From assembly GCA_030596125.1 (NCBI GenBank), contig JAUVKT010000006.1, positions 1 through 53,148 on the forward strand: a stretch of DNA of 53,148 nucleotides, in the 5' to 3' direction. Both the position numbers and the translations under genes were made by a program. Shown here piece by piece: positions 17,135 to 26,711 of this stretch (positions are counted from its first letter, which is position 1; every line of letters begins with the position of its first letter). Source of the stretch: Bacteroidales bacterium. Lineage in GTDB: Bacteria; Bacteroidota; Bacteroidia; Bacteroidales; VadinHA17. The notes under the pieces are model-generated. The model was not told the origin of the DNA. It searched no databases and was given only the letters and a program-made list of their open reading frames with translations.

Positions 17135-18457
17135 ATGTACGACAGGTTCGCAACTTACAGTAATGACAATAATATTTTTAAACAGGGTGACAAGATCCTT
17201 CTGGCTGTAAGTGGTGGTATTGATTCAATGGTTATGACTGAGCTCTTTATCAGGGTTAAGGCAGATATTGCTATTGCCCATTGCAATTTCAGCCTGAGAG
17301 ATAGAGAATCAGATGGTGATGAGGAGTTTGTCACTGAATTCTGCACTGAAAACAATATTCCCATATTTGTAAAAAAATTCGATACTATTACTTTTGCCAG
17401 CAGGGAAGGTATATCAATTCAGATGGCAGCAAGGAAACTGAGACATAAGTGGTTTGAGGAGATCAGACAATCATCATCATTTAACCTTATTGCCCTTGGA
17501 CACAATAGCGATGATAATATTGAAACATTTCTTATTAACCTATCAAGGGGAACGGGATTAAAAGGACTTACCGGGATCAGTCCGGTTAGCGGAAATATCA
17601 TCAGACCAATTCTTTTTGCACCCAGGGAAGAAATCACCTCTTTTGCCACAGAAAACAGGGTTACCTTCAGAGAAGATTCTTCAAATCGTGAATCAAAATA
17701 CTTAAGAAATAAGATCAGGCACAGGATACTTCCCGTTTTAAGGGAAATTAATCCTTCCTTAAATGATTCATTTGACGAAACAGTTAAACGGCTGCAAGAG
17801 AGTTATTTGATTATGGAAGAGTGGGTCAATAAAGTTAGCTCTGAAGTAACTGAACTTAAAAACGGCGATTATATCATTGACATTAAGAAACTTAACGATT
17901 TTGAACCTGTTAACACCCTCCTTTTTGAACTTTTCAGACAGTTTGATATTGGAACTAACCAGATAGATGACCTGAGATCCTTGATTACAGCAGATTCCGG
18001 GAAATATATATTAACACGGACGCACCGTATCATTAAAGACCGGAACAAGATAATTATTGAGAAGAGCCGGGAAACTCCGGAACTCTGTATTAAAATAGAT
18101 AACAGAGACGAGATCCTTAACATAGAAGGCTTTAACAGTTCTCTGATACCAATAGAAGAGTATGAACTGATCAAGGATCCGGGAACAGCATCAATAGATA
18201 TCGACATGCTCTCTTACCCATTAATCCTCAGGTACTGGAGAGAGGGTGATTTCTTTATCCCTTTGGGAATGGAGGGCAAAAAGAAGATAAGTGACTTTTT
18301 GATTGACATGAAGACACCGGTTAACCGGAAGCCATTCATCAGGGTACTCGAATCGGCAAATAACATAGTATGGATTATTGGGTATCGCCTGGACAACAGG
18401 TTCAGGATTACATCCGCAACCAGGAGTGTACTGGTATTAACAGAAAAAAAACGTTAA
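17135..18457 (+). CDS. tilS: tRNA(Ile)-lysidine synthase
   Basis: A 440-residue cytoplasmic N-type ATP pyrophosphatase that puts lysine on C34 of tRNA-Ile(CAU), converting it from Met to Ile decoding. The PP-loop SGGIDS is at residues 26-31. The HCNFSLRDRESDGDEEFV and GHNSDDNIETFLINLSRGTGLKGLTGI segments are classical TilS signatures. The C-terminal region with LILRYWREGDFFIPLGMEG is the TilS C-terminal substrate-binding domain. Its stop overlaps by 4 bp the stop of the convergent tyrA gene. Confidence 0.95.
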   Translation: MYDRFATYSNDNNIFKQGDKILLAVSGGIDSMVMTELFIRVKADIAIAHCNFSLRDRESDGDEEFVTEFCTENNIPIFVKKFDTITFASREGISIQMAARKLRHKWFEEIRQSSSFNLIALGHNSDDNIETFLINLSRGTGLKGLTGISPVSGNIIRPILFAPREEITSFATENRVTFREDSSNRESKYLRNKIRHRILPVLREINPSLNDSFDETVKRLQESYLIMEEWVNKVSSEVTELKNGDYIIDIKKLNDFEPVNTLLFELFRQFDIGTNQIDDLRSLITADSGKYILTRTHRIIKDRNKIIIEKSRETPELCIKIDNRDEILNIEGFNSSLIPIEEYELIKDPGTASIDIDMLSYPLILRYWREGDFFIPLGMEGKKKISDFLIDMKTPVNRKPFIRVLESANNIVWIIGYRLDNRFRITSATRSVLVLTEKKR

Positions 18458-19251
18458 CTACCGGCTGTTCTTACTCCGATGTTTGATCTTAACCTGTTAA
18501 AGAGGTGATGCAGAGCCTCCTCATCCTCCCGGTCGAGTATCGAGATCAGATCTTCCAGCCTTTTCATTATCTCAGTCAGTTTACCTATAGAATATCTGTT
18601 TAGCAATATCCCGCTAAGCAGATCATCATCTTCAGAAAGTAACCCCTGAGCTATATCGAGATGATGTTTAAAGGTTGTTCCGGGAACCTCCAGTTTTTTC
18701 ATACACGCAGAAAATACTATAGAGGAGGTAAAGGGGACAGAAAGAGAATATGCAATAATCTGATCATGCTCAACAAAAGAATAATCGTACAATTTCAGGT
18801 TTAGAGACCCGTAGAATTCTCTGAAAAATTCCTTACCAACCTCATCCGATTCAGAAATAATAATAGCATTCTGACCCGACAGATCCCTTATATTACCAAA
18901 TGTAGGACCAAACATAGGGTGTGTAGAGACAAAACGTCTTTCGCAACCCTTATAAAACTCATCCAGTCCGTTTTTCACCGATGTTATATCAGCCAGGATG
19001 ATATTTTCGGGCAAATAGGGTATAATCTCTTTGAACAGAGGCTCAGTCTGTTTTAATCCAACAGCATTAATAAAGAGGTCTGGGTTAAAATCTGCCAACT
19101 CTTCGTAAGATCTGAACCTGTATGTATTAAAGAGATATTTTAACTTTTCCGGATCAATATCGTATACTGCCACCTCGTAATCGAGACAAAGTGTCTCTGC
19201 CAACCACGATCCCATCTTACCAGCTCCTGCAATTAAAATCTTTTTTATCAT
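18454..19251 (-). CDS. tyrA: Prephenate dehydrogenase
   Basis: A 265-residue NAD(P)-dependent dehydrogenase that oxidatively decarboxylates prephenate to 4-hydroxyphenylpyruvate on the way to tyrosine. The Rossmann motif GAGKMG is at residues 9-14, followed by SVKNGLDEF and the family's HPMFGPTFGNIRDLSGQNAI segment containing the catalytic His. There is no fused chorismate mutase or ACT domain; the mutase is supplied by the DAHP synthase fusion in the same operon. It is the last gene of the operon, sharing one base with the aroC stop. Confidence 0.92.
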   Translation of the reverse strand: MIKKILIAGAGKMGSWLAETLCLDYEVAVYDIDPEKLKYLFNTYRFRSYEELADFNPDLFINAVGLKQTEPLFKEIIPYLPENIILADITSVKNGLDEFYKGCERRFVSTHPMFGPTFGNIRDLSGQNAIIISESDEVGKEFFREFYGSLNLKLYDYSFVEHDQIIAYSLSVPFTSSIVFSACMKKLEVPGTTFKHHLDIAQGLLSEDDDLLSGILLNRYSIGKLTEIMKRLEDLISILDREDEEALHHLFNRLRSNIGVRTAGS

Positions 19252-20249
19252 TACCGGTTTTCCCTTTCTCCGAATACACCCCTGTCAATAAGTTTAAGAT
19301 CTGCAAGAGCAATAGCTGCCGCAGATTCAACAATCACCGGCATCCTTAATGCAATTGAAACATCGTGTCTTCCCTCAATAATAAGATCAGCTAACCTGTT
19401 TTTTGAAATATCTATTGTCTCCTGTGGTTTGGAGATACTTGATGTCGGTTTAACAGCTACCCTGAAAAATATCTCATTACCATTGGATATTCCCCCGTTA
19501 ATACCACCTGCGTTATTTGTTAATGTAGTACCAGATGATGATAATATAAGATCGTTATGTTCCGAACCCCTCATGGCAGCAGATTTGAAACCCGCGCCAA
19601 ATTCAATTCCCTTAATCGCAGGTATTGAAAAAACAATATGAGAAATTTTCGATTCTACAGAATCAAAAAACGGCTCTCCTAACCCAGGATAGAGCCCGGT
19701 CACTCTGCATTCAATTATTCCTCCAACCGAATCGTCCTCCTTAATTGCATCATCAATAGCCCTGTCTGTTTCCGTAGTTCCGCCAATCTCAGTCACCTCT
19801 GCACTTACACCAGCCGGGGATAATATCTTTTTTGCAAGTGTGCCAGCTGCAACCATACCCCATGTCAGGCGTCCCGAAAAATGACCTCCACCCCTTGGGT
19901 CAGCAAACCCGGAATATTTTACCAGCGATGTCATATCAGCATGTCCCGGTCTGGGGATATTCTTCAGAGTGTCATAGTCTGCCGATATTTTATTGGTATT
20001 ACGGGTCACTATTACTATTGGTGCACCGGTGGTAACTCCATTATACAAACCGCTTAAGATCTCGGGGTTATCATGCTCTACCCGTGATGTTGTTCCCCTT
20101 GCTCCTGACCTTCTTCTGTCAAGATCAGTCATCAATTCCTCCTCTGTAAGCTTCATGCCAGTGGGACAACCATCGATAGTAACTCCAACTACCGGTCCGT
20201 GAGATTCGCCGAACAATGAGACCCTGAATATGGTTCCGAATGTATTCAT
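19251..20249 (-). CDS. aroC: Chorismate synthase
   Basis: A 332-residue FMN-dependent enzyme that converts EPSP to chorismate. The N-terminus FGTIFRVSLFGESHGPVVG and the RPGHADM and RGGGHFSGRLTWGMVAAG segments are AroC signatures, as is EFGAGF. It is somewhat shorter than the common 350-390 residues, and the C-terminal signature reads GRHDVSIALRMPVIVE instead of the usual RHDP form, a divergence that may be lineage-specific. Stop and start overlap with tyrA, and the aroA gene ends 6 bp upstream, indicating one transcript. Confidence 0.95.
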   Translation of the reverse strand: MNTFGTIFRVSLFGESHGPVVGVTIDGCPTGMKLTEEELMTDLDRRRSGARGTTSRVEHDNPEILSGLYNGVTTGAPIVIVTRNTNKISADYDTLKNIPRPGHADMTSLVKYSGFADPRGGGHFSGRLTWGMVAAGTLAKKILSPAGVSAEVTEIGGTTETDRAIDDAIKEDDSVGGIIECRVTGLYPGLGEPFFDSVESKISHIVFSIPAIKGIEFGAGFKSAAMRGSEHNDLILSSSGTTLTNNAGGINGGISNGNEIFFRVAVKPTSSISKPQETIDISKNRLADLIIEGRHDVSIALRMPVIVESAAAIALADLKLIDRGVFGERENR

Positions 20250-20254
20250 ACAAT

Positions 20255-21514
20255 TTAATTTACAAATTCAACCTGTGCCCCCAGCCTGGTTAACTCATCA
20301 TAAAAACCGGGAAATGATTTATTTACTACTTCACCATCATTTATTGTTATTGGATCATCTGCCATTAAACCTGCAATTCCCATTGCCATTGCTATCCGGT
20401 GATCACCGTGAGATGAAACAACACCTCCCCTAAATGAAGCAGATCCTTCAATAATTATATGATCGCTGTTATTTATAACCTTAACACCCAATATAGACAA
20501 TTCTTTTGTCAGCGCCTCCCCCCTGTCACTCTCCTTTACCTTAAGGCGCGAAGTTCCACGTATATAAGATTTACCACTACATAGTGCAGCAAGTATAGCT
20601 ACCGGCGGAGCAAGATCCGGCGATTCGCTAATATCAAAGTCGAAACTCTTTAGCTTACCCGGGGTAATCGTAATTTCCCTGTCCGATTCATTAACAGTTG
20701 CCCCGGCCATCTTTACCACCTCTATTATTCTTCTGTCGGGTTGAGTAGACAATCTGCTTATTCCATGTATATTTACCCTGCCGGCAATAGCACCAAGTAC
20801 TGCGAAAAATGCAGCCCCGCTCCAGTCGCCCTCAACATGGAAAGCTGTGGGTCTGTATAATTGCCCCGACGGAATAAAGAACTCCGAATAACTCTTATTG
20901 ATAATCTCAATTCCAAAATTATTGAGAACATCTATTGTAAGATCGATATACGACCTGCTTGCCAGTGAATTAATTATCAGACGACTATCATTATCAGCCA
21001 GCGGCAGAGCCATCAACAATCCTGTAAGCAATTGTGAACTCACTGAGCCATCTATATATGCCAGCCCCCCTTTTAACGGCCCCTTCAGGGTTACCGGAAG
21101 ACGATCTCCGTTTAAGGACAGATCAACACCCATTGGGATCAGTGAATCGCTTATCATATTCATTGGTCGTGAAAGGAGTGATCCTCGTCCTGTAATTGTC
21201 AGCTTACTGTTGCCAAGTGCCGCAATAGGTGCAAACATTCTAACTCCAAGACCCGACTCTCCGCAGTCCAACTCACTGCATACCGGATTTAATCCTCCCT
21301 TTATTATTACATTGCCCTGATCATTTTCTATTCCGGCACCGAGACATTCTGCCACCCTCATAACTGCTACTGAATCATCACAAAATGAAGGATTAGAAAT
21401 AACAGTAGTACCGTCGGCAAGCAACCCTGCTGCGACAGCCCTCAGCATGGAACTCTTGGACGGGGGGGCACTTACACTACCGCTAATGATTGATGGAGAG
21501 GTAATTACATCCAT
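20255..21514 (-). CDS. aroA: 3-phosphoshikimate 1-carboxyvinyltransferase (EPSP synthase)
   Basis: A 419-residue two-domain enzyme that transfers the enolpyruvyl group of PEP to shikimate-3-phosphate. Visible parts include the N-terminal SAPPSKSSMLRAVAAGLLADG with the substrate-binding Lys, CGESGLGVRMFAPI, and near the C-terminus RLKVKESDRGEAL and SHGDHRIAMAMGIAGL. The PEP loop usually reads LGNAGTA or similar; here it is CGESGLG, as in a divergent class. It lies between aroB (4 bp gap) and aroC in the aromatic operon. Confidence 0.94.
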   Translation of the reverse strand: MDVITSPSIISGSVSAPPSKSSMLRAVAAGLLADGTTVISNPSFCDDSVAVMRVAECLGAGIENDQGNVIIKGGLNPVCSELDCGESGLGVRMFAPIAALGNSKLTITGRGSLLSRPMNMISDSLIPMGVDLSLNGDRLPVTLKGPLKGGLAYIDGSVSSQLLTGLLMALPLADNDSRLIINSLASRSYIDLTIDVLNNFGIEIINKSYSEFFIPSGQLYRPTAFHVEGDWSGAAFFAVLGAIAGRVNIHGISRLSTQPDRRIIEVVKMAGATVNESDREITITPGKLKSFDFDISESPDLAPPVAILAALCSGKSYIRGTSRLKVKESDRGEALTKELSILGVKVINNSDHIIIEGSASFRGGVVSSHGDHRIAMAMGIAGLMADDPITINDGEVVNKSFPGFYDELTRLGAQVEFVN

Positions 21515-21518
21515 ACAG

Positions 21519-22547
21519 CTACTTTTTGTTTTTTATTATCCCGACAAGGTCATCAGTCCTTATCTCCCTTATCACACCATTTCCTATTCCTTCGAGGAGA
21601 ACAAAAAATATTTTATTCTTCTCTACTTTTTTATCTTTTAATATAGCCTCAGTTACATCAGGTAACTCCTGCGGTATATCTGTTAGTAATTTGAGTTTAT
21701 TAAGAACCGTCTCAATCCTTCCAAGCTCATTCCTGTCAAGCAAACCCATTTCAACCGATATTTGTGCAGCCATAAGCATTCCATATGATACTGCGAAACC
21801 ATGTTTCATTCCCAATTCTATCTCAACAGCATGTCCGATTGTATGTCCGAAATTCAGCAATCGCCTGATCCCTCTCTCCTTTTCATCACTGGTAACTATA
21901 TCAATCTTAATCTTAACAGAAGCAGAAATAAGTGTCGTTAGCAGGTTATGGTCCCTGTTAAGAATCGATCCAATATTCTCTTCGATAAAACCCAGCAGAC
22001 CGGCATCCCTGATAAATGCATGTTTAACAAGCTCTCCCAATCCCGATATATATTCCTCTTCAGGTAAGCTCTTCAGCATCTCAGGATCGCATATTACAAA
22101 AGAGGGTTGGTTTATACAACCAATTATATTTTTATTAACCCCTGAATTAACCCCGTTTTTACCTCCGGTGCTTGCATCTACCTGGGATAGAAGGGTTGTT
22201 GATATAAAGCCAAAATTTACTCCACGCATATATACCGAAGCTACAAAGCCGGTAATATCACAAATCACACCTCCGCCAATACCAAGAAGAAATGAGGTTC
22301 TGTCACAACCTTTTTCAAGCAGTTGTTCTACTATTGATTCAACTGTTGTAATTGATTTGGTCTGTTCTCCGGGATCAATAGTTATTACCGGGCATGAAGG
22401 GAAATTGTCACCATATATAGAGTGAATATTGCTGTCGGTAATAATTATGGTATTTGATATATCAATATGATCACCGATCTCATACCATGGTTTACCGATA
22501 AACAGTTCAGTTTCACTATTTTCTGTGCAATAAACCAGTTTCTCCAT
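21519..22547 (-). CDS. aroB: 3-dehydroquinate synthase
   Basis: A 342-residue NAD- and metal-dependent enzyme that cyclises DAHP to 3-dehydroquinate. The nucleotide-binding GIGGGVICDITGFVASVYMRG and QVDASTGGKNGVN segments are diagnostic; GELVKHAFI and LNFGHTIGHAVE supply the metal-ligand Glu and His residues. It follows the DAHP synthase/chorismate mutase gene after a 69-bp gap, the largest inside the operon; no terminator is seen there. Confidence 0.95.
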   Translation of the reverse strand: MEKLVYCTENSETELFIGKPWYEIGDHIDISNTIIITDSNIHSIYGDNFPSCPVITIDPGEQTKSITTVESIVEQLLEKGCDRTSFLLGIGGGVICDITGFVASVYMRGVNFGFISTTLLSQVDASTGGKNGVNSGVNKNIIGCINQPSFVICDPEMLKSLPEEEYISGLGELVKHAFIRDAGLLGFIEENIGSILNRDHNLLTTLISASVKIKIDIVTSDEKERGIRRLLNFGHTIGHAVEIELGMKHGFAVSYGMLMAAQISVEMGLLDRNELGRIETVLNKLKLLTDIPQELPDVTEAILKDKKVEKNKIFFVLLEGIGNGVIREIRTDDLVGIIKNKK

Positions 22548-22616
22548 ATTATGAAATAAAATTATTCATAAAGTTAATAAAAGCTGATAAACAGGTAACA
22601 GAAACGACCATAAAAG

Positions 22617-23696
22617 TTAATTCATCACATTATTCTGGAATCTGATGGATTCCTGATGTATCTGTTTAAATATCTGCACAATAAACTGATCACTCAATCC
22701 TGCTTTTCTTGCTTTTATCAGCCTGTCTTCCAGAATTTCTGACCATCGGTTAGTTTGCAGTATTGTTATATTCTCCTGTTTTTTATAGTCGCCTATCTGC
22801 TCCGAGATATACATTCTGCTTCGCAGTATCCGTAAAAGTTCATCATCCCACTGATCAATCTGTCTTCTTAATCCCTCGAGGCTCTCAAGCTGCCCGGCAG
22901 ATCTTACATCATGATTTCTGTGAATCAGCCCTTCTAACAGATCAGACAGTTGCTGAGGTGTCACCTGTTGATCCTTATCACTCAATGCTGCATCAGGATC
23001 ACGGTGAGATTCTATAAACAGGCCGTCAAAATCAAGGTCCATAGCTGTCTGGGATACACTGAACAACAGATTCCTGTTACCACAAATATGGCTTGGATCG
23101 GTTATTATTGGCAGGTCCGGGAATCGTCTTTTTAGCTCTATCGGAATTTCCCATTGTGGCACATTCCGATATGGAGATTCACCGTAATAACCGAATCCCC
23201 TGTGCACAGCAACCAGTTTGGTAATTCCTGCATTATTAACTCTCTCCAGTGCACCTATCCACAGTTCGATATCCGGATTTACCGGATTTTTTACAAAAAC
23301 AGGTATATCATAACCTCTTATTGCATCTGCGATCTCCTGAACTGCAAATGGGTTTGCTGTTGTTCTTGCTCCAATCCATAATATATCAATACCATACTTA
23401 AAAGCCTCTTTGACATGCCACATATTAGCCACCTCTGTGGCAACCAGCATTCCTGTCTCCTCCTTAACCTTTTTTAGCCATGGAAGAGCTACTGATCCCA
23501 TGCCATCAAAAGTATCGGGACGGGTACGAGGTTTCCAGATACCGGCCCTGTATATCTTTATCCCCAGTTTTGATAACTGGTGTGCCGTTTCAACAACCTG
23601 CTCTTCTGATTCTGCGCTACAGGGTCCTGATATGATCAGAGGACTGTTTTGCCTGCAATAGATCCCTTCTTTATCAAGTATCAAATTATCACTCAT
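22617..23696 (-). CDS. DAHP synthase fused to type II chorismate mutase
   Basis: A 359-residue bifunctional enzyme. Residues about 1-255 form a type I-beta DAHP synthase (PEP plus erythrose-4-phosphate), with ISGPCSAES, AGIWKPRTRPDTFDGMG, IGARTTANPFAVQEIADAIRG and ITDPSHICGNRNL. Residues about 265-355 form an AroQ-type chorismate mutase (LRRQIDQWDDELLRILRSRM, IGDYKKQ). Such fusions can be feedback-controlled, with the mutase domain sensing prephenate or chorismate; that is known of some relatives, not shown here. The start shares one base with the stop of the aminotransferase gene. Confidence 0.94.
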   Translation of the reverse strand: MSDNLILDKEGIYCRQNSPLIISGPCSAESEEQVVETAHQLSKLGIKIYRAGIWKPRTRPDTFDGMGSVALPWLKKVKEETGMLVATEVANMWHVKEAFKYGIDILWIGARTTANPFAVQEIADAIRGYDIPVFVKNPVNPDIELWIGALERVNNAGITKLVAVHRGFGYYGESPYRNVPQWEIPIELKRRFPDLPIITDPSHICGNRNLLFSVSQTAMDLDFDGLFIESHRDPDAALSDKDQQVTPQQLSDLLEGLIHRNHDVRSAGQLESLEGLRRQIDQWDDELLRILRSRMYISEQIGDYKKQENITILQTNRWSEILEDRLIKARKAGLSDQFIVQIFKQIHQESIRFQNNVMN

Positions 23697-24886
23697 TATA
23701 CAATATTTACCTGTTTACTACTAAATTCATTCTTTTTATCAATTCTGGCAAGGCTCTCCCTAAGCCTTTCTGCCGGGACAGTCAATGATATTCGTACATA
23801 ACTCCTGCCATTTGCACCAAATACCGATCCCGGGGTAATAAAGAGATTAATCCTGTTAAGCAGATGCTCAGAGAATTCAATGGATGAATCCCATTCATCC
23901 GGTAGACTTGCCCAGATAAAAAGCCCGGTCTGATCTTTATCAAACCGGCAATTTAACGAGTTCAATATTTCATAAGCTATCTCCCTTCTCTCCCTGTAAA
24001 TAATATTAATTGATTCATACCAGTTATCACCCAGCGAAAGAGCTGTAATTGCCGCATTCTGTACAGGCAGGAACATTCCCGAATCCATATTGCTTTTTAT
24101 TTTAAGAACAGCATCAATATGGTCGCTGCTGCCTGCTACCATTCCAATACGCCATCCGGCCATATTGTGAGATTTACTTAACGAATTGAGTTCAAGAGCG
24201 ATCTCTTTAGCCCCATCCACGGAAAGAATGCTCAAGGGTCGTTGATTAAGAATAAAACTATAAGGATTATCGTTAATTATCAGAATATTATGTTTCAAAC
24301 CAAACTCGATCAGGTTCTCAAATAATTTAGCTGACCCTCTGCTTCCGGTTGGCATATTAGGATAATTAACCCACATCAACTTAACACCGGCAAGACCTTC
24401 ATTTTCAATCTCACTGAAATTCGGGCACCATGAATTTTTATGATCGAGATTATAAAATATGCATCTGGCTCCGGAGATCCTTGCTGTTGATTCATATGCC
24501 GGATATCCCGGATCAGGAATCAGAACTCCGTCTCCCTTGTTTAGAAAGGCCAGACTGATATGTGTAATTCCCTCCTTCGACCCCATAAGCGGAAGTATCT
24601 CATTATCAGGTGAGAGATCAACCCCGAATTTTGTTTTATACCATTCACTAAATGCTACCCGCAGGGGTCTGATTCCCCTGTAAGGCTGATAACCATGTGA
24701 ATATGAATTATTCGCAGCGCTCACTACCGAAGCAATAACTTCTGGCGATGGAGGACCGTCGGGATTACCAATTCCCAGATTAATGACATCTATTCCTTTT
24801 GATTCCATCTCCCTGATCTGTGACAACTTTCTTGAGAAATAGTATTCATTAATAAAATTTAGCCGATCAGCTGTTTGTACTCTCAT
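23696..24886 (-). CDS. PLP-dependent class I/II aminotransferase of the aromatic operon
   Basis: A 396-residue fold-type I aminotransferase. Motifs include VINLGIGNPDGPPSPEV, NYPNMPTGSRGS (the conserved N-x-P-x-G region), NDNPYSFI and LNSLSKSHNMAGWRIG, whose Lys is the PLP-binding residue. From its place between pheA and the DAHP synthase/mutase gene it probably transaminates phenylpyruvate, 4-hydroxyphenylpyruvate or prephenate; an aspartate or diaminopimelate aminotransferase role is an alternative. Its 5' end overlaps the pheA 3' end by 20 bp, suggesting translational coupling. Confidence 0.88.
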   Translation of the reverse strand: MRVQTADRLNFINEYYFSRKLSQIREMESKGIDVINLGIGNPDGPPSPEVIASVVSAANNSYSHGYQPYRGIRPLRVAFSEWYKTKFGVDLSPDNEILPLMGSKEGITHISLAFLNKGDGVLIPDPGYPAYESTARISGARCIFYNLDHKNSWCPNFSEIENEGLAGVKLMWVNYPNMPTGSRGSAKLFENLIEFGLKHNILIINDNPYSFILNQRPLSILSVDGAKEIALELNSLSKSHNMAGWRIGMVAGSSDHIDAVLKIKSNMDSGMFLPVQNAAITALSLGDNWYESINIIYRERREIAYEILNSLNCRFDKDQTGLFIWASLPDEWDSSIEFSEHLLNRINLFITPGSVFGANGRSYVRISLTVPAERLRESLARIDKKNEFSSKQVNIV

Positions 24887-25706
24887 AAAGCTTATTCCCT
24901 TTTTTATATATTCCTAAAATTTCAAGATCATTACTGTTTCTTTCCAGAACATTTACCAGGCCATTTGCATCAACCGATTCATCGAATTCCAGATCGAGAT
25001 AAAACAGATATTCCCATCCGCCATTAATCTTTGGAACTGATTGAATCTTAGAAAGGTTAATGTTCATATCAGCCAGGAGCATAAGTAGTGATGCAAGTGA
25101 TCCTGGTTTGTGTCCAAGTGAAAAACATACAGAGGCTTTATCTGCCCCACTCCATTCCCCTTTGTCTTTGCCAACCACAAGAAACCTGGTATAATTCTTT
25201 TTATAAGTCTCAATACCTTGAGCCAGTATCTCCATGCTATACATTGAAGCAGCTATATCAGCACCAATAGCGGCTACTCCTGTTATCTGGTTTTCACTGA
25301 TTTTTCGAGCACTTGCAGCCGTATCGGCGCTCTCAATCAAAGATATTTCCGGATATCTGTTCAGGAAATTCATACATTGAGAAAGTGCAACCGGATGAGA
25401 CCAGACTTCCCTTATAAGATCTATTGATTGCCCCGGAAGCGCCATCAGGTTTTGTTTAATACGCAAATTACATTCCCCTAATACCTTCAAACCCGATTCC
25501 CTGATAAGGGAATAGTTATATAATATACTGCCCGACCTTGCATTCTCAATGGCGATTAAAGCGAGGTCTGCTTTGTGCTTCGTGACAGATTCGATTGTTA
25601 CATCAAATGTTGTACAGGGAAAAATCTGAAAACTGATACCATTAAAGTATCGGTTAGCTGCAACCTCATGAAAACTACCCCTGTCACCTTGTATTGCTAT
25701 TCTCAT
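24867..25706 (-). CDS. pheA: Prephenate dehydratase
   Basis: A 279-residue monofunctional enzyme that converts prephenate to phenylpyruvate. The periplasmic-binding-like catalytic part shows QGDRGSFHEVAANRYF, ENARSGSILYNYSLI, SADTAASARKI and the catalytic NYTRFLVVGK segment. The C-terminal ACT domain (about 190-265) binds Phe for feedback inhibition; the GSLASLLMLLADMNINLSKI helix is present, while the usual ESRP motif reads IQSVP. It is the first structural gene of the operon. Its ATG lies only 3 bp after the T-tract of the second leader terminator, so expression depends on terminator readthrough. Confidence 0.94.
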   Translation of the reverse strand: MRIAIQGDRGSFHEVAANRYFNGISFQIFPCTTFDVTIESVTKHKADLALIAIENARSGSILYNYSLIRESGLKVLGECNLRIKQNLMALPGQSIDLIREVWSHPVALSQCMNFLNRYPEISLIESADTAASARKISENQITGVAAIGADIAASMYSMEILAQGIETYKKNYTRFLVVGKDKGEWSGADKASVCFSLGHKPGSLASLLMLLADMNINLSKIQSVPKINGGWEYLFYLDLEFDESVDANGLVNVLERNSNDLEILGIYKKGNKLYESTNS

Positions 25707-25709
25707 AAT

Positions 25710-25736
25710 AAAAAAAATCCCGGTTTATGCCGGGAT
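25710..25736 (-). terminator. Attenuator terminator 2 of the phe/tyr operon
   Basis: Minus-strand ATCCCGG-CATAAA-CCGGGAT (7-bp stem) followed by eight T residues, ending three bases before the pheA start codon. The 5' arm region GGTGATCCC (25732-25740) is complementary (one G-U pair) to GGGATTACC (25762-25770) inside leader peptide 2, giving a mutually exclusive antiterminator. Confidence 0.92.
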
Positions 25737-25753
25737 CACCAATATTAATATAA

Positions 25754-25819
25754 TTAACTATGGTAATCCCTGATGGTAATAAAAAAATAGTAGTAATAAA
25801 ATGTGTTTAATCTTCTCAT
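25754..25819 (-). CDS. Leader peptide 2 of the phe/tyr operon
   Basis: A 21-codon open frame beginning MRRLNTFYYYYFF and ending in TAA at 25754. It contains five Tyr and three Phe, with seven aromatic codons in a row (TTT TAT TAC TAC TAT TTT TTT). It starts three bases after the T-tract of terminator 1, so it is made only when terminator 1 is read through. A ribosome stalled on the aromatic run would leave GGGATTACC at 25762-25770 free to pair with the 5' arm of terminator 2, allowing transcription into pheA; a ribosome reaching the stop codon would cover it. It shares the NTFY start of the aromatic block with leader 1, suggesting duplication. Confidence 0.85.
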   Translation of the reverse strand: MRRLNTFYYYYFFITIRDYHS

Positions 25820-25822
25820 ATC

Positions 25823-25848
25823 AAAAAAAAAGTCCCTTTTCAGGGACT
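25823..25848 (-). terminator. Attenuator terminator 1 of the phe/tyr operon
   Basis: Minus-strand AGTCCCT-GAAA-AGGGACT (7-bp stem, GAAA tetraloop) followed by nine T residues. It lies 32 bp after the stop codon of leader peptide 1. A competing antiterminator is possible: GGGGAT (25876-25881) with GTCCCT, plus GTTA (25870-25873) with TAAC (25851-25854). Confidence 0.92.
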
Positions 25849-25880
25849 CCGTTAATATTCTTAAAAACATAACCTATCCC

Positions 25881-25934
25881 CTACTCTCCTCTTGAAAAGT
25901 AAAAAAAGTAAAAGGTATTATAGATATATGCCAT
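25881..25934 (-). CDS. Leader peptide 1 of the phe/tyr operon
   Basis: A 17-codon open frame encoding MAYIYNTFYFFYFSRGE, with four Tyr and four Phe, six of them consecutive (FYFFYF). The start codon lies about 20 bp after the predicted transcription start from the promoter at 25958-25988, and terminator 1 follows. This is the classical arrangement of a translating-ribosome attenuator: scarcity of charged tRNA-Phe or tRNA-Tyr stalls the ribosome on the aromatic run and changes the folding of downstream RNA. The mixed Phe and Tyr content matches an operon carrying both pheA and tyrA. Confidence 0.85.
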   Translation of the reverse strand: MAYIYNTFYFFYFSRGE

Positions 25935-25957
25935 AGTTTTTTTCAAATTTTATTAAG

Positions 25958-25988
25958 CAAATGTATGGTTAATTCTCAAATTTCCAAA
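25958..25988 (-). promoter_or_regulatory. Promoter of the phe/tyr operon
   Basis: TTTG (25985-25988) and TACATTTG (25958-25965) are separated by exactly 19 bp, a perfect fit to the Bacteroidota primary-sigma consensus (-33 TTTG, -7 TAnnTTTG). Transcription would begin near 25951-25953. Confidence 0.75.
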
Positions 25989-26057
25989 GTTTATCTTGAT
26001 TTATCTTAAAATTCTTAAAATCTTGCCATCTCTTATTTGCACTTAACAATATGACTT

Positions 26058-26711
26058 ATGTTAAAAAAGGAGATCTATAAGAAAACTATTGAATATTTTA
26101 CAGCTAACAGGCCTGTAGCTGAAACAGAACTGGATTACAAAAATCCATTTGAACTAATAGTAGCTGTGATACTTTCGGCTCAATGTACCGACAAGAGGGT
26201 TAATTTAATCACTCCTGCGCTATTCCAAAGGTTTCCGGATGCAGAGCATATGTCAATAGCAACACAGCCTGAGATACTGGAATATATCAAATCCTGCTCC
26301 TATCCAAATAACAAAGCAAATCATTTACTTGGTATGTCATTAATGCTGACTGAAAAGTTCAACAGTATTGTTCCGTCGGATGTTGAGGAACTTCAGAAAC
26401 TACCAGGGGTTGGAAGAAAAACTGCCAATGTTATTGCATCAGTAGTTTATCAGAAACCAACTTTTGCCGTCGACACCCATGTTTTCAGGGTTGCAGCCCG
26501 TATCGGCCTCACATCAAATGCAAAAACGCCACTGGCAGCAGAGAAACAGTTAACAGGTAATTTTCCTGAGAAGCTGATCCCTCTTGCTCATCATTGGTTG
26601 ATACTTCACGGAAGGTATATTTGTAAAGCAAGAGCTCCCGATTGTGATAATTGCGGAATGACCAATTTCTGTAAATATTTTAATCGTATAATTAAAGATA
26701 AAAGTTTATAA
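26058..26711 (+). CDS. nth: Endonuclease III
   Basis: A 217-residue DNA glycosylase/AP lyase that removes oxidised pyrimidines in base-excision repair. The helix-hairpin-helix LPGVGRKTANVI (115-126) carries the catalytic Lys121, and VDTHV supplies the catalytic Asp139. A C-terminal 4Fe-4S cluster motif C-x6-C-x2-C-x5-C is formed by Cys189, Cys196, Cys199 and Cys205. It is divergent from the aromatic operon and shares its upstream region. Confidence 0.97.
   Translation: MLKKEIYKKTIEYFTANRPVAETELDYKNPFELIVAVILSAQCTDKRVNLITPALFQRFPDAEHMSIATQPEILEYIKSCSYPNNKANHLLGMSLMLTEKFNSIVPSDVEELQKLPGVGRKTANVIASVVYQKPTFAVDTHVFRVAARIGLTSNAKTPLAAEKQLTGNFPEKLIPLAHHWLILHGRYICKARAPDCDNCGMTNFCKYFNRIIKDKSL

Follow-up and report, generated by a model that had tools for sequence, protein, structure and literature searches.

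The region upstream of pheA in the analysed stretch of Bacteroidales DNA (53,148 nucleotides of contig JAUVKT010000006.1, hereafter the window) harbours two leader-peptide modules one behind the other, each made up of a short reading frame rich in Phe and Tyr codons and an intrinsic terminator. This arrangement is a real and recurrent doubling of a classical regulator which, as judged from sequence, is probably functional. The evidence consists in the anatomy of the region, its recurrence in other genomes, a promoter motif found before the first leader only and a base pairing which co-varies across the family. An earlier note on this DNA had interpreted the region upstream of pheA as a series of two complete attenuation modules, a reading supported by the comparative, promoter and pairing evidence given below. 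The positions it had assigned to the promoter, both leaders, both terminators and pheA proved exact on the minus strand, and the 17-residue leader with FYFFYF as well as the 21-residue leader with seven aromatic codons in a row are both present (Table 1).

Table 1. Elements of the doubled leader region, the genes behind it and two tandem hisG leader regions. Positions refer to the window unless a locus is named.
Feature	Position	Strand	Basis
Promoter, taken to be of the Bacteroidota type: TTTG, 19 nt, TACATTTG	TTTG 25988-25985; TACATTTG 25965-25958	-	sequence; TAnnTTTG survey
Leader 1, 17 aa, MAYIYNTFYFFYFSRGE, block FYFFYF	ATG 25934 to TAG 25881	-	sequence
Candidate antiterminator 1 (weak): AGGGGAT at leader 1 stop with 5' arm of terminator 1	25842..25882	-	fold, shuffles
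Terminator 1, AGTCCCTGAAAAGGGACT then eight T	25848-25823	-	sequence; fold, z -3.9
Leader 2, 21 aa, MRRLNTFYYYYFFITIRDYHS, block FYYYYFF (seven consecutive aromatics)	ATG 25819 to TAA 25754	-	sequence
Module 2 region 2, GGGATTACCA, within leader 2 past the aromatic block	25761..25770	-	sequence, fold
Module 2 region 3, TGGTGATCCC, overlapping the 5' arm of terminator 2; predicted antiterminator with region 2	25732..25741	-	fold
Terminator 2, ATCCCGGCATAAACCGGGAT then seven T	25736-25710	-	sequence; fold, z -4.1
pheA, prephenate dehydratase	24867..25706	-	best NCBIfam model NF008865 (PRK11898), E 2.1e-57, 194 bits, below cut-off 219
Remaining presumed operon (six genes after pheA)	18454..24886	-	profile matches, gene order
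Aminotransferase	23696-24886	-	match under curated cut-off
DAHP synthase/chorismate mutase	22617-23696	-	match under curated cut-off
aroB	21519-22547	-	match over curated cut-off
aroA	20255-21514	-	match over curated cut-off
aroC	19251-20249	-	match over curated cut-off
Prephenate dehydrogenase-like gene	18454-19251	-	match under curated cut-off
Tandem His-rich leaders, each with terminator, before hisG	L363, from 1060	+	sequence
Tandem His-rich leaders, each with terminator, before hisG	L366, from 1060 counted on that strand	-	sequence

On the minus strand the elements follow one another from 25988 to 25706 in the order promoter, leader 1, terminator 1, leader 2, terminator 2 and start codon of pheA, the latter being separated from terminator 2 by three bases. 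The promoter is placed upstream of the leaders by motif only, and we assign it to the Bacteroidota type via the TAnnTTTG consensus, which we take to be the -7 element of this phylum. Leader 1 comprises four Phe and four Tyr residues, leader 2 three Phe and five Tyr. The start of leader 2 is uncertain because its frame is open upstream as far as an in-frame ATG at 25870 and thereby crosses terminator 1; if the leader began there (38 residues), its translation would disturb this terminator. Downstream, pheA is the first in a run of seven genes of Phe/Tyr synthesis, which are presumably co-transcribed. The neighbouring gene on the upstream side, nth (at 26058), is oriented divergently from pheA, and therefore neither terminator belongs to the end of another gene.

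For a survey of pheA upstream regions a module was defined as a leader with at least five F/Y/W within eight residues followed by a terminator 5-120 nt past the leader stop. Regions were drawn from the window's own family, order and phylum and from named genome contigs, the phylum draw comprising 68 genomes besides the window's own, mostly the best-scoring of at least 258 with a match. One locus with a broken match (L060), 49 loci mostly from other phyla (L062-L110, with L105 titled Bacteroidota) and a handful of partial or truncated matches from the family and order were left out. The 259 regions used comprise 232 distinct ones. One module is present in 172 of these, two in 19 and none in 41. 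The opposite strand yielded six singles and zero doubles and block shuffles 0/696, and with the stricter threshold of six aromatics in eight residues 152 singles and 18 doubles face one single on the opposite strand.

The 17 doubles which stem from coded genomes span 11 family codes including the window's own (f1, f15, f31, f35, f84, f110, f111, f129, f140, f142 and f152); two further doubles lie on Saprospiraceae contigs whose family may coincide with one of these codes. Two members with a pheA match were sampled from each of f15, f110, f140 and f152, and in each case both are double. In a tree of pheA built from 101 of 118 full-length rows (17 module-less rows were omitted, and six of the 19 tandem loci lack a full pheA) the double state requires nine changes, at least six of which are forced by well-supported branches, with either direction being possible. 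The window's nearest relatives by pheA, whose full-length matches are at most 65% identical, are single in the tree and never double in the sample. The conservation in relatives that the earlier note had considered decisive is hence found in one sense and missed in another, since doubles recur in 11 family codes but the nearest relatives carry one module or none. As a side observation, no aromatic leader was detected in L008, L009, L048, L049, L051, L052 and L054, although their pheA is 57-59% identical to that of the window.

A corresponding look at hisG, for which 30 out of the 58 matching genomes were sampled, yielded 22 upstream regions with one His-rich leader plus terminator, two with two such modules and six with none (opposite strand 0/30). 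As recognised by sequence, leader-peptide modules are the usual arrangement both before pheA (191 of 232 regions with at least one) and before hisG (24 of 30) in the sampled Bacteroidota. The window's own genome (G000, estimated to be 96% complete) gave no hisG match at E 0.001 and is thus possibly unable to make histidine.

That the two modules belong together is indicated by the placement of the promoter. When TAnnTTTG was sought within 60 nt before the leader ATG, it turned up before 124 of 172 single leaders (9.5 expected) and before 13 of 19 distal leaders of tandem loci (0.5 expected), yet before none of the 19 proximal ones (0.6 expected). Since the element precedes distal leaders and never proximal ones, the modules, as judged by this motif, stand in series on one transcript. 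In 17 of the 19 tandem loci, 105-175 nt separate the starts of the two leaders, the exceptions being L300 (231 nt) and L273 (260 nt).

Nearly all tandem modules possess a G-rich segment, at the stop codon of the leader or upstream of it, which is able to base-pair with the 5' arm of their own terminator. Compared to shuffles, the median z of the best pairing is -3.0 across the 210 modules, 78% of which are at or under 5 in 100. Pairing with the own arm amounts to -11.80 kcal/mol on average versus -8.10 kcal/mol for permuted arms (sd 0.14, minimum -8.62 in 2000 permutations), and the difference persists if only the 165 distinct arms are permuted (-12.19 versus -8.25). Within the tandem loci the own arm beats that of the sister module for 31 of 38 segments and fails to do so for seven. 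The pairing segment starts at a median of 13-14 nt past the first base of the last aromatic codon, the search having begun at +10, which is about the edge of a stalled ribosome. In position, distal and proximal modules differ: the segment begins at least 8 nt ahead of the stop codon's end in 5/19 distal, 14/19 proximal and 93/172 single modules (Mann-Whitney, distal versus proximal p 0.01; single versus either not significant). Going by this co-varying pairing we infer that the family on average functions by classical ribosome-mediated attenuation.

The spacer past the G-rich segment contains TATG in 110 of 210 modules as compared to 67.4 expected, often 11-13 nt from the start of the pairing segment; in the window such a site lies at 25866-25882 on the minus strand. 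TATG resembles the pause consensus of RNA polymerase. We did not adopt it as a pause signal, as a G at -10 accompanies just 49 of 116 sites, which makes the likeness suggestive at best.

It is probable that the region constitutes two ribosome-mediated transcription attenuators of the same specificity, arranged serially within one leader RNA. The RNA polymerase would start at the single promoter, and in each module a ribosome would translate the leader rich in Phe and Tyr codons. Given enough charged tRNA, it would get to the stop codon and cover the G-rich segment, upon which the terminator would fold and transcription end. If Phe- or Tyr-tRNA were short, the ribosome would stall on the aromatic block and leave the G-rich segment free, which would then base-pair with the terminator's 5' arm and let the polymerase pass. 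Transcripts reaching pheA would have to clear both gates, by which the leak would be multiplied down and the response to aromatic shortage become steeper. For the window we thus infer that the leaders are translated, that ribosomes stall on them, that transcription terminates, that module 1 works and that the response gains in steepness, the last because the response would be the product of two gates, as argued for tandem same-ligand riboswitches in the available text of PMC9481103.

Predicted folding of the window modules accords with this mechanism to a different degree. Both terminator hairpins are better than 200 of 200 dinucleotide shuffles. Antiterminator 2 (fold of 25729-25775) reaches -19.2 kcal/mol with a z of -5.2 and 0/200 shuffles as good, antiterminator 1 -10.6 kcal/mol with a z of -2.0 and 6/200 shuffles as good. 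If solely the terminator arm is considered, 7/100 (module 1) and 13/100 (module 2) shuffles pair as well, neither being individually significant; region 2 of module 2 even scores -9.0 with the arm of module 1 versus -7.0 with its own 7-nt arm, its predicted own partner being longer. The earlier note had proposed to fold the leader RNA with and without ribosome masking. In an equilibrium model, module 2 responds to it: the antiterminator comes out as the best fold while the ribosome occupies the aromatic block, and with the ribosome at codon 15 or later the terminator share rises to 0.83-0.96. Yet, this share is still 0.30-0.49 under the block stall (0.78 without ribosome), so that module 2 is predicted to fold as a switch, though not an all-or-none one. 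Module 1 does not respond, its terminator share remaining at 0.98-0.99 at every ribosome position tested. With terminator 1 dominating at equilibrium, module 1 must act co-transcriptionally, i.e. kinetically, or else mainly as a damper or hardly at all.

This behaviour of terminator 1, the low significance of antiterminator 1 and the single module kept in the nearest relatives are what would be expected if only module 2 sensed aromatics, module 1 being a near-constitutive terminator or a decaying remnant which lowers expression. We regard this as unlikely, though as the most serious of the alternatives, since leader 1 retains promoter, start, aromatic block, stop, complementary segment and strong terminator, and since its segment directly follows the stop, a position shared by many single modules of relatives. 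Moreover, across the family the pairing of distal modules is almost as good as that of proximal ones (median -11.2 versus -12.0; 12/19 versus 15/19 at or under 5 in 100 shuffles), which argues against this alternative.

As to the signal, the earlier note had envisaged an AND-type gate responding to both charged tRNAs. In its strict form, such a two-input gate would have module 1 tuned to Phe and module 2 to Tyr, both of which would have to be short, and the four Tyr in a row within the block of leader 2 as well as the block of leader 1, which is richer in Phe, may be taken as hints of it. Both codons, however, occur in both window leaders and indeed in all 38 leaders of tandem loci; therefore shortage of either amino acid should open both gates. 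The 154 changed aromatic sites in 53 leader pairs divide into 40 synonymous changes, 66 exchanges among F/Y/W and 48 losses, and this excess of exchanges over synonymous changes likewise speaks against separate tuning, albeit in a sample biased by picking leaders for aromatic content. As a test of leader translation, the kinds of change in these pairs carry little weight for the same reason. Ten tandem leader pairs show 25 synonymous among 106 changes, near the 16.5% expected of random single changes. Thus, as far as codon content reveals specificity, the arrangement is one of two equal gates in series and not of Phe-AND-Tyr; we consider the two-input gate quite improbable.

Even less probable is an action of the leaders via ribosome re-initiation or translational coupling to pheA instead of transcription termination. 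According to the available text of PMC4833913, re-initiation has been proposed at close leader genes in many bacteria, and leader 2 could start at 25870 across terminator 1. On the other hand, a terminator with a U-run stands behind each leader, and the stop of leader 2 lies 47 nt before pheA, outside the 11-14 bp peak given for Bacteroidetes in that text.

Aromatic runs alone prove nothing because runs of six consecutive F/Y codons are common in this genome, occupying 31 partly overlapping places as opposed to 36 for the reversed control pattern. When 30 of the 31 places were examined, a leader with terminator was found for the window leaders (three overlapping places) and otherwise at L327 alone, where a weak, GTG-started frame of 45 residues has a terminator behind it. 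The leader-terminator combination at pheA is more than chance. That T-rich codon runs merely happen to stand beside unrelated hairpins is consequently a negligible prospect, for although the runs are no commoner than their reversed control, the opposite-strand and shuffle controls, this genome check, the promoter placement and the pairing permutation all oppose it.

Attenuation through leader peptides belongs to the textbook mechanisms and is mostly presented with one gate, pheL, trpL and hisL being enterobacterial transcription attenuators of this kind. The window modules resemble them in end-product codons within the leader, a predicted alternative antiterminator (weak in module 1), an intrinsic terminator and a biosynthetic operon behind. 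The Rfam family Phe_leader (RF01859) nevertheless scores 18.1 bits in the window versus a cut-off of 55 (E 1.8) and exceeds it in none of 20 related loci; in the window and these loci tRNA alone was over cut-off, and no T-box was found. While the search turned up little on leader-peptide attenuation in Bacteroidota in the open literature, the available part of PMC9723704 describes, for Flavobacterium psychrophilum and relatives, structured 5' elements before pheA and hisG, i.e. the same genes, together with signs of attenuation by leader peptides. From these and from the pheL/trpL/hisL type our case differs by two complete modules in series, a doubling which that part of PMC9723704 does not mention. 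The available text of PMC7366714 reports several sORFs within one 5' UTR of B. thetaiotaomicron.

Riboswitches and T-boxes are already known to occur doubled for the same signal. Pseudo-cooperative tandem riboswitches, from whose two same-ligand sensors a steeper response is expected, likewise combine two complete modules for the same signal (here by codon content), each with its own expression platform; their sensor, however, is an RNA aptamer instead of a translating ribosome, and the term "leader peptide" is absent from the available text (PMC9481103). Adjacent T-boxes before thrZ and trpE in bacilli put two or three sensors for the same amino acid in a row before one gene, but bind tRNA directly, and the accessible part of PMC2494555, which covers them, lists no T-box in seven Bacteroidetes/Chlorobi genomes. 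The leader RNA of Salmonella mgtCBR has two attenuators, each of them including a short translated ORF, and is described as a singular case of tandem attenuators which serve different signals; there, ATP and proline are sensed additively and the stem-loops are unlike intrinsic terminators, whereas here both leaders hold the same codons and each module ends in an intrinsic terminator (PMC3641672, as far as available). In some Gammaproteobacteria the rimP-leader has a second terminator in tandem, hence two intrinsic terminators before one gene and a potential antiterminator, yet the portion of PMC2965389 at hand names no leader peptides. Finally, two leader peptides, ermBL and ermBL2, act on one gene in the induction of ermB, in that case by erythromycin-induced translational attenuation and not by transcription attenuation through amino-acid supply (PMC8274638, available text). 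The phrase "tandem leader peptides" gave no match in the open literature, where doubled leader-peptide attenuators with intrinsic terminators were not found either, in line with the earlier note, which knew of none; single or doubled Bacteroidota leaders may have been noticed elsewhere, e.g. in the 2010 survey by Lopatovskaya and colleagues.

Taken broadly, we find it fairly likely that the leader-peptide attenuator of Bacteroidota is a plug-in cassette which has been doubled repeatedly, for phe/tyr and at least occasionally for his, to give a sensor of low leak and steep response. If so, two equal ribosome gates would be the translated counterpart of the pseudo-cooperative tandem riboswitches. 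The recurrence of doubling with the same specificity suggests that one gate may be too leaky or too shallow in some lineages, with a second gate as the answer.

For the window the earlier note had deduced a duplication from the NTFY common to both leaders, for which we find no support: the best DNA match of module 1 with module 2 spans eight bases of a T-run and takes rank 200 among 209 comparisons, a similarity which 79 of 100 shuffles attain as well. Duplication was accordingly set aside as the origin here, the modules sharing no more than this T-run. In L056, L210, L217, L221, L273, L300 and L302 the similarity of the modules within the locus exceeds that of all 100 shuffles, so that a duplication is possible, although modules of unrelated loci often score as high as these pairs. 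The distal module of L010 finds its best match in the single modules of congeners, while the distal modules of L277 and L293 are most similar to one another, followed by single modules from other loci; in these three loci it is the proximal module that looks like the newcomer, with gain and loss equally compatible with the data. A clean block of about 140 nt distinguishes the leader regions of the congeners G033 and G021: G021 possesses the distal module alone, G033 an extra module between U-run and pheA. The two would thereby offer a ready natural experiment on the benefit of a second gate. In the comparison of L010:1150-1560 with L012:1290-1560, two loci from congeners, the block of about 140 nt comprises the whole second module and has U-runs at its borders.
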